Below the pieces are notes generated by a model, which did no database searches, had not been told where the DNA came from, and was given only the letters and a program-made list of their open reading frames with translations. Below are positions 3,725-14,785 of a DNA stretch of 22,202 nucleotides, in pieces. The number at the start of each line of letters is the position of its first letter. Positions within the stretch are counted from its first letter, which is position 1. The position numbers and the translations under genes were made by a program. This stretch comes from Entrophospora sp. SA101 (taxonomy: Eukaryota > Glomeromycota > Glomeromycetes > Entrophosporales > Entrophosporaceae): contig CAUDNR010000580.1 of the NCBI GenBank assembly GCA_958430865.1, forward strand, positions 55,487 through 77,688, written 5' to 3'.

Positions 3725-3762
3725 AATGCAAAAATGAAAAAAAGTTATTTATTAATTTCGAT

Positions 3763-3863
3763 TTTCGATTTTTTCGAAACCTGTTAGGGTATATTCGAAA
3801 TGTTTGAACCCTAATCGTCGAAATTATTGTCGAAACAAAACTATTTCGCCATCATGTATGATT
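3763..3863. repeat. Second copy of the right end of the element
   Basis: Repeats 3624-3724 at an offset of 139 bases with only a few differences, from TTTCGATTTT... through CCTGTTAGGGTATATTC to CCATCATGTATGATT. It is a tandem duplication of the right terminus, or the stump of a second element inserted beside the first. Confidence 0.8.
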
Positions 3864-5493
3864 TTTTTATCATTATTATTATTATTATTACATTTAATAT
3901 TATTCCTGAAAAAAATAAAGATTAACTATTAATTTTTTATTTTAAATAATAATAGTGCGCAAGTATTTTTTCATTACTACAGTCAATATCATTGTTTCTG
4001 AAAAAGTATTAACTATTAATTTTCATTTTATTTTAGATAGTAAATGGGTGTAAGTGTTTTTTCAATATTATTATTGTTTAAAGCAATTAACTGTTTGTTG
4101 TTGATTTTTTCAATTCTCTGAAAAAAAAGGTTCAGTTTGCTGGAATTGGGGCCTAATTTTAAAGTAGTTAATAAAAATATACATATTGTGATCATTTCAA
4201 TAGTCTATATATAGGTTCCTGATTGTCAATCATTATTAATATGCGCCAAATGTTAATATTTCATCAGTACTGACTTCCTACTACCTAGGTAATACCCGAC
4301 CGGACCAGTAACAATCTCTACGACGTAGTTAATCGAGACTGAATAAAAATAACTTCTTAGGCTGTTTGGCATATCTGTTCTTTCTGAAACGTCAAAAAAA
4401 ATTTTTTTTAATTATTTTCAAGAGGAATGAATAGCCTCACATAAAGTTAATTTGGAAATTATTTTGTGTGAACTATTATTTTATTTACTTTATTTAATAA
4501 AATTATGAGCCTTTATTAGAAAAAAAAAATATGCGCCAAATGTTTGTCATAATAGTAATACACTTTCAGAATGTTACACTTAATATATTTTTCAATAGTG
4601 ATTGGAGTCTGATGGCTTATAATAAGTAGTTGTTGAATTTCCTACATGGCAGCATTTTATAATAATCCACCAATTTATTCGAGACAATATTTAAAAGTAT
4701 TATTGTTATTATAATAGCATATGATGTACAAGCTTAGTCAATTTCAGAACTGTCAGGATAATATCCTTTTGGAACATATCATTTCATCACTTTCATCATT
4801 TTGATTATAATGAGATTGCTTATTTTTTATTTTTAATGATAAGTTATGAGTTTGGATATTTTTATGTCATTTTCAGAGCATTTTTATCCTTTGGATGTTT
4901 TTTGCCGAAATTTTCTTTGGTTACATATAAAACCTTCCCAATTTGGTTCAGAGTATCCACTTTCTAATATGAAAAATATGAAAATAATAAATCTATTATT
5001 GATCTATAAAAAAAAATTCGGTCGTTGTCCTTGTGGGTTTTTTGTAAAAACCTCTTTTACTTTTTTTAAATTGATTGATTATCTTTAAATTGACCAATTA
5101 TAATAATAAAAGTTATGAAAATTGTGCCAAAAACGAATTTTATTTTCTTATAAATATATCAATTGTTCAATGGATAATGAAAAATTTTGTTAAACAAATA
5201 AAAAAAAATTTGTTACACGGAAAAAATATATTTTCACTTTTTGCTTTATTAAATGCACCAATCGAGTTTTTAAAAAATTGCATTTCTTTTTTTTAAAAAA
5301 AATTTTCCTAAATAAATAACGCGTTATAAGTGAGTTATTTTAATTAAATCTATTTCAAATAAAAAATTTTTATCTTATACTCACTTATTTTCTTTCACAC
5401 AAATTATCATTGCACATATACTCCAAGCAACTAACAATCACTTGCTAAACAATTAAAACTTTAGATTAACTATATTATTCAACAATAAAAAAA
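3864..5493. other. Long AT-rich intergenic stretch
   Basis: Holds an ATT microsatellite (about 3871-3890), homopolymer runs, and a 15-base word TATGCGCCAAATGTT seen twice (4240-4254 and 4530-4544). Two open stretches at 4846-5088 and 5075-5296 are biased to F, K, I and N, show no family motif and look like chance frames in AT-rich DNA. The last 100 bases should hold the promoter and 5' leader of the NTF2-like gene; no TATA box stands out. Confidence 0.5.
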
Positions 5494-6957
5494 ATGAGTC
5501 TCGAACAAATTTGGCATGAATATAAACATAACCATGATGGTGATCATTATACAGATAATGCTTCCGTAGTTTTTGTCCCGACAGCCTCTGGTGCACGAGG
5601 TTATGATGCTGTTAGACAATTCTTGGCAAAGGCATACGATACTCGTGTGCTCAAAATAAGCGAAAAATTGATTTACTCGACAGTTGGAAATGATTCCATC
5701 GTTGAAGAATCGGAAACTACAATTCAGTTTGTTAGTGGTGATGGTTCCTGGGTTGTACCTGGTGTTGACAGTAGATACACAATTGATAACAAAGTTGTCA
5801 TTCCAATGGTAGGTTTATTGACCCATTTATGAGTTATGAGGATATCTGATGAAAAATTATTTTGAGGCTTTACAGACTTTTTGTCCTGCTTTTCATGTAA
5901 CGTTATTATTTTTTTAATCAAAAATTGTATGCATGTACGTATATAATAGGTAACTTCAGCAAAATTTGAAGGCGATAGAATCTCATCAATTGTGAGTAAT
6001 TATTAATAATGTAGTTAATTACTACTATTACTAGCGTTTTTATTATTAGAGAATACATTAATTCACACACTAAAAAAATTATAATTATGATAATTTTTTA
6101 ATATAGCGCGTTTATTGGGATCAAGCTTCAGTATTGAAGCAACTTAAATTGTAATTATAAAAGATTTTATTAAATATATTAATAATCATTTACACCATTA
6201 CCATTATCATCATTGTTGTTAATTTGTTGTTATATAGGATATCTGAGAAAAGCGCTTGGCCAATAGTAACTGATAAACAGGCTGAATCATTAACTAATAT
6301 TGCAAATGCACATCTCAATCCATTTGGTAAAACGGTTCTTAGTGCTGGTTTGTCGCAAATGAACTCCAATGGTAATATTGTTTATTAACAAAATTTTTTT
6401 ATTTTATAAATAATTAATCACATAGCTGTTAATACTAACAATCAAATTTAAAAAAATTTGCAGAACAACAGCAACAACAACCTCGTCATAATGTTCATAC
6501 TTCTAGTCGTGTTAATCAACCTGGCGGTACTGGTGGCAAATCTTCAATCATTTTCAGCAACGAGACTGATGATCGTAGGAATTTTTGAATTTTGAATTTT
6601 ATTACTTTTCTTAAAACAAGAAGCGATCCTTTATCTTATTTTTAAACCCGTTGTTTCAACAAATAGCTGTTGTTAGTCGTACCAGATTCAATTCAAACAA
6701 GAATGCATCACAATTCTCTATTGGTGATGACGACGACACTGCTTCTCAAGCTGATACATTATCTGGACATTCAACTCGTCAAACTGTTAAACCTTCAAGC
6801 CGGTAAATATTTACTATATTGCTGTTGTTGTACTTTTAAAATTATATTTATTGTTATTTTTGCAAATAACGCTAACAATAATTCATATATATGCTATATA
6901 TACTTTAGTGTCTTGAAACCTCCTGGTGGTGGTGGTTCTCAAATTACCTTTGGTTAA
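5494..6957 (+). CDS. NTF2-like protein with Jupiter/HN1-like C-terminal motifs
   Basis: Seven exons: 5494-5808, 5950-5991, 6107-6150, 6238-6371, 6464-6574, 6667-6802, 6909-6957. All six introns are GT-AG (87-141 bp) and the phases agree, giving 276 residues. The first ATG follows a run of A and is preceded by AT-rich leader. Residues 1 to about 160 (MSLEQIWHEYKHNHDGD... RVYWDQASVLKQL... SAWPIVTDKQ... HLNPFG) resemble NTF2-like domain proteins of fungi; family members of this kind are usually single-copy genes of unproven function. The rest is low complexity (QQQQQ, DDDD) with three related short motifs: SSRVNQPGGTGGKSSIIF (about 192-209), SRTRFNSNKNASQFSIG (about 219-235) and SSRVLKPPGGGGSQITFG at the C-terminus (259-276). 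The last closely resembles the PPGG..S..FG motif of Jupiter/HN1 microtubule-associated proteins. Family recognition is from memory; the exon model is well supported. Confidence 0.88.
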
Positions 6958-7548
6958 AAAAAAAAAACTTTTAAAGGTGCTGCCAACAATTTAAACTATA
7001 ATAAAAAAAAATATATTCATTATTATTATTGAAATTTCTTTTATTATCAGAATTTTTTTCCTAAAATTTTTTTGTTCTTTTTATTGTGTTCGTATTTATA
7101 TTATATTGATACATTTTGCAGCTTATATTTAACAAAAAAAAAAAGGAGGAATAAAATTTATTAGGATAATGATAAGACACTTTTCATTATTATAATGAAA
7201 AAGATCAATTATCTTCATTTATTTAACCCTGATTGATTATAATACAAAATAATAAAGAAAATTAAACGCTATTTTTATTATTAATTATTAATTATATAGA
7301 TAAAATATGTTACTAATTTCATAAAAACCAAAAATTTTGCTTGCGAGTAATAAAAATAACCCAACCGATATTTAGTTGATGAATGATGATCCGTCGTCTA
7401 TGAACCAGAGAATTTGCTCTCAAAGTAAAAAAGGATATTTCAATAACAAGCAAAGAAAAATCATTGTAAGGATGTCTGTGTAAAAGAAATGTACTATAAT
7501 AAATATATGTATAAATAAAGGAATTTTTAGTAACCTCTTACATTGAAC
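6958..7548. other. 3' region of NTF2-like gene and spacer
   Basis: AATAAA at 7000-7005 is a likely poly(A) signal, 43 bases after the stop. An imperfect hairpin lies at 7180-7203 (CTTTTCATTA / TAATGAAAAAG). From about 7370 the base composition changes as the Fanzor relic on the other strand is approached. No gene seen. Confidence 0.5.
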
Positions 7549-8968
7549 CTATGCCAATACTAAGTACAAGTCATACGTAGACAGCCTACAATAAGGTGTC
7601 TCGGGTGTAAGCCCTAACGTCGCAAACGACTCTTGTTGTTTTTCTGTAATATACTTCAAAGCATATTACGAACTCCGTTTTACATCCCTGTTAATTGTGG
7701 ATTTGCAAGATGTACAACATCTGCATGTTTTGTTAGTATATTCCTCAGTGCAGACGATTTTGACCTTGCATCAAGGGTACCCGCGGATTTGTGGAGCAAA
7801 TGTTGGTGAAAACGGTAACGTGACCATGCAGTTTTAGAGTAGATTTTTCTAGACCGTGTTTTTTAACCATGTCTTTTGTTTTAAATTCGGTGAGCAATAC
7901 TACATGATGGCTTTCACAAAATTATCTTGCTAATCTTCGATGACATTTATCCACACTTAAGATTACGAATTTCTTGTGAATCTGGAGCATTCATCGACAG
8001 AGCATACGCTACGCCTACTTGCTTTGACATGAATAGAATCCCTTTCTTTTCACCTTGGATTCTATCACAATGCAAGCACAAGCGATGTATTCTATTAATA
8101 TCCCCCTTTTCCCATTCTATAACTTCACCACCACTTGGATTATAGCCAGTCAGAGAAATGATGCCAGTGCCTCTATTTTCTTCGACCACCGAAAATTTAG
8201 AAATTTGGCTATCAGCCTTAGTTTCGAGTGGTTTAGAGGTACAAAATAGAATTCACCAAGACGATTCATGATGAGACATGGAGGTCATAATTTATTTCAA
8301 GAATTTCTTCTCTTGCTTCAATATCCGAGAAATGAATAATGACCACGATTTTTTCTGATAGAATGGTGATTGACTGCAATTTATCCTTTTTAAAGCAATT
8401 TAAAAGGTCAATCATTTCTTGCACCCCTAATACCAATACTAATGTCAAGAACCCTATCAAAGACTAATTTCTTTAATTTTTCAGCGATACAATTTTCACG
8501 TAAACAATTTTTTTATTTTTTTATATTATGATTAATTGCAGCTAGGCATCGGTTGTACGTTAATATTTTGCTTTTTCTTCCGAATTAGGGTAAAAGCCTA
8601 ATTTTAAGAGTTTTCCCGGTGGAAGTTTTTTGGAAAGGAGATCAAAGACGAAGGAACAACATCCTCGACTTTAAAAGAAGATGAAAAAGAATCACATCTT
8701 TAAAATTCTTTCATGTTCCATCTGGTAAAAAAAAAAGACTATTTAAACCTTTAGCTGTTGGTTTAGCTGACTCAATTGTAATCCATGAACCAAGAGCTAG
8801 TCTTTTTAAAGAGTCCTTCCATTGACTTGAGCACGGTAATTCGCTATTAGTTTTTAAGGGTAACCAACACCAATTGGTGAGTTTTTGAATAAATTCATCC
8901 CAGAATGGCTTATATCTTCTTACATTCGAAGAAGTTGGTTTGTCACAGTCAACTAAAGAAGATTTTTA
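7549..8968 (-). pseudogene. Decayed Fanzor (eukaryotic TnpB-like RNA-guided nuclease)
   Basis: Minus-strand blocks in the order of a fungal Fanzor/OrfB protein, in shifting frames. 8968-8711: N-terminal extension (YKPFWDEFIQKL, LPLKTN). 8620-8588: TGKTLKIRLLP. 8564-8515: LTYNRCLAAINHNI. 8501-8266: IGIRGARND then LLNCFKKDK. 8269-8150: MNRLGEFYFV, SKKIEAL. 8153-8033: SLTGYNPSGGEVIEWEKGDI, the strand after the RuvC-I aspartate. About 7945-7865: CHRRLAR*FCESHHVVLLTEF, the RuvC-II region, Glu codon 7888-7886. 7862-7787: SKTAWSRYRFHQHLLHKS. 7787-7549: CKVKIVCTEEYTNKTC, then CTSCKSTINRD (last Asp 7686-7684), ending ALKYITEKQQ...LGLTPE. Fanzors are known to use a guide RNA made from the element's end to cleave DNA. 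This copy is dead: at least five frameshifts, in-frame stops, the DPG segment of RuvC-I missing and the zinc ribbon collapsed. No partner recombinase seen. Assignment is by motif order, without a search. Confidence 0.82.
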
Positions 8969-8990
8969 ATAAAAAATAAAATTTTGTAAA

Positions 8991-9021
8991 ATATTCAATT
9001 TTTTTTAAAAAAATTGAATAT
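8991..9021. repeat. 31-bp AT palindrome beside the Fanzor N-terminus
   Basis: ATATTCAATTTTTTT and its exact reverse complement, separated by one base. It lies 23 bases outside the outermost recognisable Fanzor block, so it may mark an element end, but AT-rich palindromes also occur by chance here. Confidence 0.55.
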
Positions 9022-10041
9022 GGCAAATATCATAAATAGACGTTTATTTAATAGATCGTAAAATGGCAATCTGCACTTGACGATCTTCACAAAACACGTG
9101 ACAATAAAATCTTTTGATTCTCAAAAACTGACGTTGTGGCACAGAAAGCTGTGAGGGCCAAGTGTCTTCATTATAGTAGAATATATTGAATACCAGTTTT
9201 AATTGTTGAGGGTCTTTTGTGGTTCGTTTTTATTATTGTTATTAAATTTTGAACCTTTTATTTGTTTGCCTCCTCCTCTCTTTGGTATGGTGGGTGGTTG
9301 TTGTTGCAGTTAATCGAAATAATTTTTATTTTTTTAATGTTTCTTTCTTTTGATTCATATTTCATCATTTCGATTATTACACAACCACATAAATTAATGC
9401 AAATGATCCAAATAAAAATTATTGAAGATAATTTATGGGAAAGTTTAGTATGTGTCAATCAGTCACTCTTTATGAAATGATTATTATTTATTTTTATTAT
9501 ATTTATGAGGATATACATTTAGGACCATAGAAATATTATCCTATACTTATCAAGTGCTGGTAGGAATTCAAATATAAATGATGATCATCATATGTATTTC
9601 AACTGTTTTGATAGTGAATCTTCACACACCCATCACCTTTTCAAGGCCCGAATGAATATTGTCGGATGTCAAGTTAAACTGATTTTATCAAGCATATTAA
9701 AGATTTTGTTTGATAATGGAACATCCTAATATGAAATCGATATGAAATTTGTAATAAGAACAAGCTTGGTCTGAGAAATGGAAAGACAATTGAAAAGGAT
9801 TTATATGATGAATTTGTGCGAGTTAAAGATAGATACAGAGTTATAAAAACATCAAGATAGAAAACGTTGAATGTTAATATATATATATATGAATGTATGC
9901 ATACACATACATGTAGAAGATATATTCATTGAATTTTTGAATTTTGTTGTTAATTCTAGCAAATAGCAATATATTTTTAATATTATAGATATATTTAAAT
10001 TTAACTTTTCACTGTAATAAATAATTCAATCAATCAATCAT
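9022..10041. other. Region without a recognised gene
   Basis: Overlapping open stretches on both strands at 9258-9480 show no family motif. About 9750-9860 (+) reads GLRNGKTIEKDLYDEF then VKDRYRVIKTSR before a stop, possibly a broken exon of unknown origin. A TA run with ATGTATGCATACACATACAT lies near 9880-9915. The last bases are presumably the 3' end of the minus-strand gene that follows. Confidence 0.4.
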
Positions 10042-10894
10042 TCAATTATCAATGCTGCTGAATCTTCGATAAATTCTTATGGCAATATCATAAAATGATT
10101 TTTCTTTCTCTGGATCGAAATTTGTTGCAATTGTTGATTCTTTACTGCTTAAAGAAAAAAAATAATGATATTTGTTTTTAAAATAATAGTAACGTTGATA
10201 ATAATAATAATAAAAGCTATTTATTTAAAAGCATTTTTTACCCTATTTCAACATTCTCGTCATATTTAGAAAGAATAATTTGAGAAGGTCTTCTTAATGC
10301 ACTAATACTGTATGGTCTATCATTTATATGATGATGACCTGTGTACGAAGATGAAGATGTTCTGGATCTTAAAGTTGAATCGATTTGTGATTGGTGTGAA
10401 CTTGCAAATGTACTATTATTGTATAGAATTTTATTCCTGGAGGGTGTTGTATCAGCTAATAACGAAAAATCTTCTGGTGAACTTGGAGTTCTAATTATGT
10501 TCTTGGACATCTCACGCTGTTCCTATTCATTAGTTTTTATCGTTAATAACTATTATATATAAATAATAATATAAATATTTTTCTTATTATTACCGATATT
10601 AAATCATTATCAATTTTATTAGATGATCCTTGTTGTTGTGATTCATAACTATTCTTTTTTGGAAAATTACCTAAATCTGCCAGTAATTCTAAGAATAATA
10701 ATAATAACAATGATTACTTTTAATCTACAGTACAACTACAATAATTAAGGAATAAATAAAAAACCTTCAGGCTTAAATGAATAAGGATATGGTGCTGGAA
10801 TATTTCCTACGCCAAATTCCCATTCTGATATTGGTGGTGATATTAAATTTTTCGGTTTTTTGAATGCATCATAAATAGTTTCTTTTGAAGACAT
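10042..10894 (-). CDS. Hypothetical protein, 203 residues, four exons
   Basis: Exons on the minus strand: 10894-10765, 10688-10594, 10522-10242, 10147-10042. Introns are GT-AG (71-94 bp), phases agree, and the total is 612 bases including the stop. The start MSSKETIYDAFKKPK is the first ATG after AT-rich leader and runs into a proline-rich segment ending WEFGVGNIPAPYPYSF. Then come an acidic/leucine stretch (EELLADLG), a Ser/Thr-rich middle (TPSSPEDFSLLADTTPS and SRTSSSSYTG, with SP and TP sites that could be phosphorylated by proline-directed kinases), and a conserved-looking C-terminus (FDPEKEKSFYDIAIRIYRRF). No membrane segment or signal peptide. I do not recognise the family. The clean splicing and uneven composition argue for a real, mostly disordered nuclear or cytoplasmic protein. 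Confidence 0.75.
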
Positions 10895-11369
10895 TTTATA
10901 AATGAAGGCAATAATAATAATAATAGTGTATTTTTTGTTTCACAAAAGATTTCTCCCGATTCACGTCAATTATCTACCCGTGCAACCTAAAAATTGATGC
11001 CAACCAACTTGTTTGTTGTACTTGGTCATCACCATCACCTTCGTTCAAAAGATCAACCGGCGTAAGTTTTAATTTCCTTATGTTTTTTCAGAAATGATTA
11101 TATGGAATGACTTTGATTGGTTCTCCCATTATACTGACATGTCGTTATAACAGAATAAATTCTATAATTCTAAAAAAAGTTGACAAATTATGTCATTATA
11201 TATACTTGTATAACGAGATAAATAATAGGTGTCATTTAATTTCGTTGTTTGGCAAAACAATTACCATCCCATGTATAATCATAACAGAAAATGTTATTAT
11301 TATTGTTAACAAATCATGTGTAGATGTTAAAATTTACTTAATTTATTCGAGATAATCAATTAAATATCT
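10895..11369. other. Spacer upstream of the 203-residue gene
   Basis: The first 200 bases should contain the promoter of the minus-strand gene. An open stretch at 11107-11355 (+) is rich in I, N and K with no motif and is probably chance. Short words GTCGTTATAACAG and CTTGTATAACGAG suggest a worn transposon end but are not enough to call one. Confidence 0.4.
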
Positions 11370-12414: not shown

Positions 12415-12657
12415 ATTGAAGTAGCTGACCAACCAGAGGTTGCAGACAGTTGCAGACAGTTGCAGACAGTTGCAGCAGTTGCAGCATTAGATGTCAATAT
12501 TTCTTTGGGTTGCAACTCCCTAGTTGCAGAGCCATCTTTAATTGAAGTAGCTGACCAACCAGAGGTTGCAGACAGTTGCAGACAGTTGCAACAGTTGCAG
12601 CATTAGATGTCAATATTTTTTTGGGTTGCAACTCCCTAGTTGCAGAGCCATCTTTAA
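12415..12657. repeat. Nested tandem repeat: 126-bp unit with inner 10-bp unit
   Basis: Copy 1 at 12415-12540 and copy 2 at 12541-12657 both begin ATTGAAGTAGCTGACC and end GTTGCAGAGCCATCTTTAA. Each holds an inner minisatellite of TTGCAGACAG, three times in copy 1 and twice in copy 2, which explains most of the length difference. The plus strand is open through both, reading IEVADQPEVADSCRQLQ twice, but with no recognised family this may be chance. Confidence 0.9.
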
Positions 12658-13771: not shown

Positions 13772-14037
13772 AACTGAACAAAGCTCAAGGCTTATCACTT
13801 AGTCTGGCACAAAAGACCAACCAAATGTGTCCAGCAATAGATTGAGGCATCCTACCAAGACCCCTTCATGAAATGAAAGTGATCAAGGCTTGTCAACAGC
13901 ACTGTTGATGAACTGAACAAAGCTCAAGGCCTATCACTTGTTCTAGCACAAAAGACCAACAAAATGTGTCCAGCAATAGTCTGAGGCATCTTACCAAGAC
14001 CCCTTCATGAAATGAGAGTGATCAAGGCTCATCAACA
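13772..14037. repeat. Two-copy tandem repeat, period 139 bp
   Basis: Copies start at 13773 and 13912 with ACTGAACAAAGCTCAAGG and run through TGTGTCCAGCAATAG and ACCAAGACCCCTTCATGAAATG to GATCAAGGCT. They differ at scattered positions. The minus strand of both can be read for short distances (one frame runs into AKHIMQLIKEANFIE), so the repeat may be a duplicated exon of the broken coding region beside it. Confidence 0.85.
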
Positions 14038-14785
14038 GATTTCAAACATGTTTCATATCATAATAAGCATCTTCTAGATACCATGTTCAACTTCCTTGTT
14101 AAAAATATTTGAATGACATGACCTCCACCTCAAGAAGCTTATAAGTGACCATTCCGATTCTTCCTCCTCCTTGAAATATGTTTTCTTTTCAACAATTGGC
14201 TAATAATGGAAGTTTTCATGTTTAGTAACAAAAAATAAACAATCAGCATGATACAACACTTAACACATAAAACTAAATACTCATGTTATTATCCATTATA
14301 ACTATAGATGTCGAAATATTATGCAATATATAATAAAAGAAATTTCAAAATATTTTATTATTATTATTATTATTACAAACACGTTATTAGTATGATTGGC
14401 AAAACATTTGTTTTGTACAACAGGATTCAAGAAGAAACTTCAATGCAATCTTGCATTTTAAACATAACTTTCTATTTGCAACATTTTTTAATTTGATATG
14501 GAGAAATCAAAACAACAAGAACAGTTAACAGCATGTAAATAAACAATAAATAAAATTTGCTGTATAAGTAGTGTGTGTTACAAGAATAAGGGAATCGAGT
14601 GACTTCGTTATATGTACAGTTTTTTATTTATTATGTTATTTAACACTTATAAAAGATTGCTCAAAACCCATAACACTGCTTTTTCCTTAATTGGGATAGA
14701 TTGTATGATTTTGGTTTTGATCTACTATTTTTTTTTTTTGTAAATTAAATTTGTTGTTTGCCTATTTGACATAAAAAACAAAATA
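14038..14785. other. AT-rich spacer
   Basis: No gene recognised. A short open piece on the minus strand around 14205-14100 (FQGGGRIGMVTYKLLEVEVM) may be debris. A (TTA)n microsatellite lies at about 14349-14372. The open stretch 14308-14496 spans this microsatellite and looks accidental. Confidence 0.45.

Follow-up and report, generated by a model that had tools for sequence, protein, structure and literature searches.

Fanzor proteins, as circumscribed here, are eukaryotic proteins, related to the DNA-cutting enzymes of CRISPR systems and associated with mobile elements, with a TnpB-type RuvC nuclease domain and a zinc ribbon; their fingerprint, as given in PMC10711439, is a DPG motif together with an alternative position of the RuvC-II glutamate. 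The best PDB match of the family analyzed here, by both sequence and fold, is the Fanzor2 of Acanthamoeba polyphaga mimivirus (L79; 9b0l in the PDB), where the elements are described as carrying a serine recombinase (PMC3627910). The Fanzor2* proteins are encoded in non-IS607 transposons, with examples in Chloropicon and molluscs (PMC10711439). Among fungi, Spizellomyces punctatus encodes SpuFz1, a biochemically characterized Fanzor1, as a single-gene element flanked by inverted repeats and present in many full and partial copies, for which 42 loci, 19 of them full length, are reported in PMC10432273. The same source presents Fanzor1 as common in early-diverging fungi, while PMC3627910 describes Fanzor1 in many kinds of eukaryotic transposons, as well as 5'-truncated Fanzors borne by Helitrons in Chlamydomonas.

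The DNA analyzed here (the window) is a stretch of 22,202 nucleotides from the glomeromycete Entrophospora sp. SA101 (contig CAUDNR010000580.1 in GCA_958430865.1, positions 55,487 to 77,688 of the forward strand). Its minus strand from 7445 to about 9065 very probably carries a dead copy of a seemingly single-gene mobile element encoding a Fanzor2-type RNA-guided DNA nuclease. This reading is based on near-whole-protein homology, the losses of frame, start codon and RuvC-I aspartate, the presence of at least 34 related loci, a dN/dS below 1 and a recurrent right end. The features of this copy are as follows:

7445-7450, minus strand: CTTGTT, tentative right end (motif in 9 of 30 3' flanks; chance in the window flank alone 0.048)
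7530-7640, minus strand: candidate guide-RNA region across the former stop codon (alignable across 32 loci, alignment A2)
7579-8911, minus strand: predicted Fanzor2-type pseudogene, residues 15-523 of the C1299 relative (frameshift-aware alignment and six homologs)
7684-7686, minus strand: RuvC-III aspartate codon, retained (translation; invariant in 25 of 25 family members)
7705-7725, minus strand: remnant of the zinc ribbon, with the loop removed by an in-frame deletion (translation and alignment)
7744-7746, minus strand: codon of the "alternative" RuvC-II glutamate, retained (translation; invariant in 25 of 25 family members)
8151-8152, minus strand: in-frame deletion point, at which the RuvC-I (DPG) motif and the first catalytic aspartate are gone (alignment)
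8912-8965, minus strand: N-terminal end of the former coding region, without a start codon (comparison of the 5' ends of 13 copies)
9024-9062, minus strand: 39 bases common to the 5' flank of the copy on contig C776 of the same genome (nucleotide similarity)

The homology was evaluated with a purpose-written frameshift-aware local aligner, with a 524-codon TnpB/Fanzor-type frame from contig C1299 of the window's own assembly (G000; 101 Mb, 2123 contigs) as the reference. Window positions 8911-7579 align with residues 15-523 of this frame at a score of 1172, with identity at 308 of the 431 residues aligned. The alignment has to change frame 14 times and to read through 5 in-frame stops, and 70 residues are missing. 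By comparison, the maximum score was 51 (mean 37.4, sd 4.2) for 30 two-base-block shuffles and 42 for 20 other stretches of the window. With six homologs not belonging to this genome, the stretch gave scores of 340-836, compared with 31-40 for their shuffled versions and 35 for each of two kinases. The preliminary description had recognized by eye ten blocks of a nearly full-length decayed Fanzor, in a fixed order on the minus strand and with frames shifting between them. All ten were recovered in that order in three minus-strand frames, from about 8905 to 7684, and the frameshift-tolerant comparison that it proposed is significant both with the C1299 frame and with the six outside homologs. 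It was also right that single-frame tools would miss the gene, as none of four single-frame pieces matched a TnpB-type family in Pfam, where FTH was matched once below threshold (E 0.018), or any family in NCBIfam, and one such piece gave no TnpB-type match in the PDB (one chance match, E 1). Thus a frame-hopping pseudogene that single-frame family searches overlook was correctly read by eye. The limits proposed there, 7549-8968, were nearly right: the protein match covers 7579-8911, nucleotide similarity to other copies spans 7488-9015 and 9024-9062, and the element probably extends from about 7445 to 9062-9070. Elsewhere in the window, open frames of a protein kinase occupy 222-1694 (best homolog 79% identical over 90%), and tandem repeats of about two copies each are found at 12449-12657 (116 bases) and 13772-14038 (139 bases).

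A search of G000 with one 101-residue piece of the window retrieved 60 matches (E up to 1), one of which led to the 524-codon frame; that frame as query retrieved 114 matches (E up to 0.001), in 47 places. Less 13 same-score places, these correspond to at least 34 distinct family loci, mostly broken; both 47 and 34 are lower bounds, derived from 82 scored out of 363 first-look candidates. Many Fanzor places in G000 occur as same-score pairs or triplets, and the window region itself has a second copy on contig C266, 99.88% identical over 7494 bases (window 3752-11245), which may be a second haplotype, a duplication or an assembly artefact; together these observations indicate that the assembly contains haplotypes or duplications. 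The frame on C1299 (L006/L016) retains the catalytic residues and is free of introns over the stretch matching the window. It exceeds the cut-off of the NCBIfam family guided_TnpB (121.3 bits, cut-off 100) and those of the Pfam families Cas12f1-like_TNB and HTH_OrfB_IS605, and falls below that of OrfB_IS605. At its 5' end the similarity to other copies stops, and an inverted repeat leads into a gene encoding a Tc5-type transposase DNA-binding domain (L016:7156-8259), in the position expected for the 5' part of the Fanzor; hence the start of the C1299 copy itself appears to have been replaced by an inserted Tc5/pogo-type transposon. No copy open across the whole protein and with its own start was found among the 82 scored candidates (363 in the first look). 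The expectation of relatives elsewhere in the genome was therefore borne out at many loci, but their anticipated intactness only in part, the best copy, C1299, being seemingly devoid of its own start.

All 38 pairs of copies compared by a simple Nei-Gojobori count exhibit dN/dS below 1 (range 0.38-0.77), in a set of pairs that are not independent, as they share sequences and include dead copies; for the window and C1299 the same count gives dN 0.135 and dS 0.244 (ratio 0.55). Since pure drift would give a ratio of about 1, the ancestors of these copies were under selection for the protein. The zinc-ribbon family PF07282 has 66 matches in G000 at E up to 0.01. The best of them lie outside the known family places, at C366:9749-9934 (open frame of 383 codons), C1908:33658, C102:1606, C1993:121327, C434:9906, C532:22147 and C1354:56140, and may represent other TnpB/Fanzor families.

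The window copy is dead and, as it stands, can encode no working nuclease, because in addition to the frame changes and in-frame stops listed above it lacks a start codon, and the catalytic aspartate of RuvC-I has been deleted together with the surrounding motif. Of the 13 copies compared at their 5' ends, 8 (L017, L018, L022, L025, L026, L030, L032 and L034) have a start codon a short distance ahead of the PFW motif; the window copy has none. Against a full loss, the alternative glutamate, the RuvC-III aspartate and a part of the zinc ribbon persist.

The catalytic residues were compared in 25 family members, hand-picked from the best 120 of 2247 homologs. The DPG motif in RuvC-I is present in 23 of them, though it is deleted in the window copy itself; the alternative RuvC-II glutamate (E453, separated by six residues from C460 of the zinc finger) occurs in all 25 and in the window, whereas the canonical RuvC-II slot holds a glutamate in only 14. 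None of the 25 lacks the RuvC-III aspartate or any of the four zinc cysteines. Judged by these sequence features, the family is a member of the Fanzors, i.e. it encodes a predicted protein with a TnpB-type RuvC domain and a zinc ribbon, and does so in a eukaryotic genome. The eukaryotic context is indicated by flanking frames of host type (read by eye) and by named homologs from glomeromycetes. Relatives from Diversispora epigaea (P0011, 51% identity) and Gigaspora margarita (P0071, 47%) belong to the same protein family; they are the two of the 25 that deviate at the DPG motif and carry no Fanzor name in the source listing. Since the named homologs come from glomeromycete fungi, the fungal host assumed from the letters alone fits.

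The distinction between Fanzor2 and Fanzor1 is a refinement absent from the preliminary description. The PDB search with the C1299 frame identified the mimivirus TnpB-like protein L79 as the best match (6.3e-20), and the profile search of PDB sequences did so with 5.1e-43; the 19 PDB sequences that it retrieved (E up to 1) include no Fanzor1 chain. When the structure of the C1299 frame was modelled with AlphaFold2 (mean pLDDT 78.5) and used for a fold search, the mimivirus Fanzor2 ranked first (E 7.9e-22) and SpuFz1 (8gkh) only 43rd (E 1.4e-3, TM-score 0.29). The family protein is compact, about 520 residues, as is the mimivirus Fanzor2 (520 residues vs. 524 in the C1299 relative), although the two share only about 21% identity in the structural alignment. 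As both the best sequence match and the best match of the predicted fold are the mimivirus Fanzor2, the protein is classified as Fanzor2-type rather than Fanzor1; as no IS607 recombinase was found, it is named Fanzor2-type and not a canonical IS607 Fanzor2 element. A decayed Fanzor1, of the type known from S. punctatus, would agree with the frequency of Fanzor1 in early-diverging fungi, and the variety of transposons carrying Fanzor1 would explain the missing IS607 recombinase; given the distant rank of SpuFz1 in the fold search, the lack of Fanzor1 chains in the profile search and the compact protein, we regard this origin as improbable.

Two further explanations, each of which we consider scarcely credible, concern the nature of the locus rather than the type of the protein. 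The frame changes might be introns of a working gene, or the protein might be kept for another job, e.g. as a nuclease-dead regulator: nuclease-dead TnpB-derived repressors exist in bacteria, and the window copy has indeed lost the RuvC-I aspartate while retaining other parts. Yet introns are contradicted by the C1299 relative, which is open over the same stretch without them, and any working gene by the accumulated frame changes, stops, missing residues and the lack of a start codon. Likewise, the Pfam and NCBIfam models matched by the family are common to it and bacterial TnpB, as would be expected of a bacterial gene acquired by contamination or recent transfer, but the loci are dispersed, diverged and set beside frames that look eukaryotic by eye, the named homologs are glomeromycete, and DPG combined with the alternative glutamate is the Fanzor arrangement. 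As to a viral origin, tblastn found no relative in viral contigs; the structure matches to proteins of giant viruses do not by themselves place the family in a virus. The preferred reading of the window locus remains a dead Fanzor2-type element.

Comparison of the right ends revealed a T-run followed by CACTTGTT in 5 of 8 copies and CATTTGTT in one, with unrelated flanks beyond; the motif is absent from L018 and L022. As L025 and L039 have one common flank, the shared right end is found in 5 of 7 distinct cases. CTTGTT occurs in 9 of 30 3' flanks, where 1.7 are expected and at most 7 were obtained in 2000 simulations, and 6 of these 9 flanks are outside the young subfamily (L036 and L039 belong to the set of 8 right ends and are outside the set of 30 flanks). 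Upstream, 9 of 19 rows contain one or more units of a repeat array (unit length about 50 bases), of which the window has none; in L025 and L030 a short inverted-end element was seen by eye inside this array, some 230-480 bases ahead of the Fanzor start.

The left end in the window is probably at 9062-9070, between the stretch shared with C776 and a different repeat. Some 40 bases at window 9071-9110 have matches at five further places (C2041, C1329 twice, C1293 and C247) and represent this different repeat, which ends beside the Fanzor copy. At the copies in general no terminal inverted repeats or target duplications were found and the left end was not located, and a search upstream for an inverted copy of the right end gave no consistent one. 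A candidate left end common to L022, L017 and L053 was discarded, as the stretch in question is also found at unrelated places. The stretch at L022:3343-3430, also in L040-L053, has a TATA-like core and is repeated at roughly a dozen unrelated places; it is perhaps a shared promoter or repeat end. No empty site was seen at L037, which is flanked on the left by the end of a different repeat. Several copies retain only a 3' part, as do the 5'-truncated Helitron-borne Fanzors of Chlamydomonas, but this is no more than a resemblance, since one of these copies, L037, simply adjoins that repeat.

Searches of G000, an assembly that is possibly incomplete, yielded no IS607-type serine recombinase with either of two models (PF00239, E up to 0.001, 10 of 14 controls detected; NF033518, E up to 1, 9 of 14 controls detected), in contrast to the mimivirus elements. 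No partner transposase was identified beside the Fanzor copies, where the flanking frames read by eye (part of the set) are of host type. The Tc5/pogo-type gene beside C1299 was rejected as a carrier and is taken as a later insertion, because it is sited where the similarity stops and was not seen at the other 5' ends read. Since left end, inverted repeats, duplications and transposase were not found, the reading of the family as a mobile element in its own right draws on the dispersed copies and the right end. In its numerous full and broken copies of a single gene the family is similar to SpuFz1, though the inverted repeats flanking the latter were not found here; it shares with Fanzor2* the Fanzor2-type protein without a detected IS607 recombinase, but Fanzor2* rides carrier transposons, and none was identified for the present family.

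By analogy with characterized TnpB and Fanzor systems, a live copy would have made a nuclease that binds an RNA transcribed from the 3' end of the element encoding it. The last nucleotides of this RNA, derived from the DNA just past the right end, would guide the cutting of matching sites; a separate transposase would move the element, and guided cutting could then help it to persist or spread. The window copy no longer carries out any of these steps. The candidate guide-RNA region was analyzed in alignment A2, from which identical rows had been collapsed to leave 32. Hairpins in single sequences gave fold z-scores from -1.71 to +0.28 in 8 sequences (+0.28 in the window), RNAalifold predicted no pairs, and in pair counting 89.9% of cells were paired, a value reached by 295 of 500 shuffles, so that covariation does not rise above the shuffled background. 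In a conservation profile computed without L032, which has large insertions, identity over the first 45 bases past the stop is 0.73, compared with 0.81-0.84 in the coding part, so an RNA function could not be argued from higher conservation there. As folding, RNAalifold and pair counting add nothing beyond sequence conservation, a 3'-end guide RNA is not claimed for the window, and for the family it is inferred solely by analogy with other Fanzors.

That fungi harbor Fanzors of this kind is already known. In a full-text literature search (main texts) on Fanzors in Rhizophagus, glomeromycetes or mycorrhiza, the one paper retrieved was a review of gene transfer in plants, the matching passages of which contain no description of these loci, and the transposable-element papers on Rhizophagus irregularis found by full-text search do not contain the word Fanzor. 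The present analysis adds a single genome with at least 34 loci of Fanzor2 type, which have relatives in both Diversispora and Gigaspora. It is tempting, if rather speculative, to suppose that glomeromycetes host an undescribed Fanzor2-type lineage without an IS607 recombinase, moved by another transposase and marked by an asymmetric right end (T-run, CTTGTT) and a 5' array of about 50-base repeats, in which broken copies such as that of the window could still act in trans, supplying a live Fanzor with guide RNAs. The passage of Fanzor2 to other transposons has been proposed in PMC10711439 as the step that gave rise to Fanzor1. If the family truly lacks an IS607 recombinase, it would bear on this transfer of Fanzor2 to other transposons.
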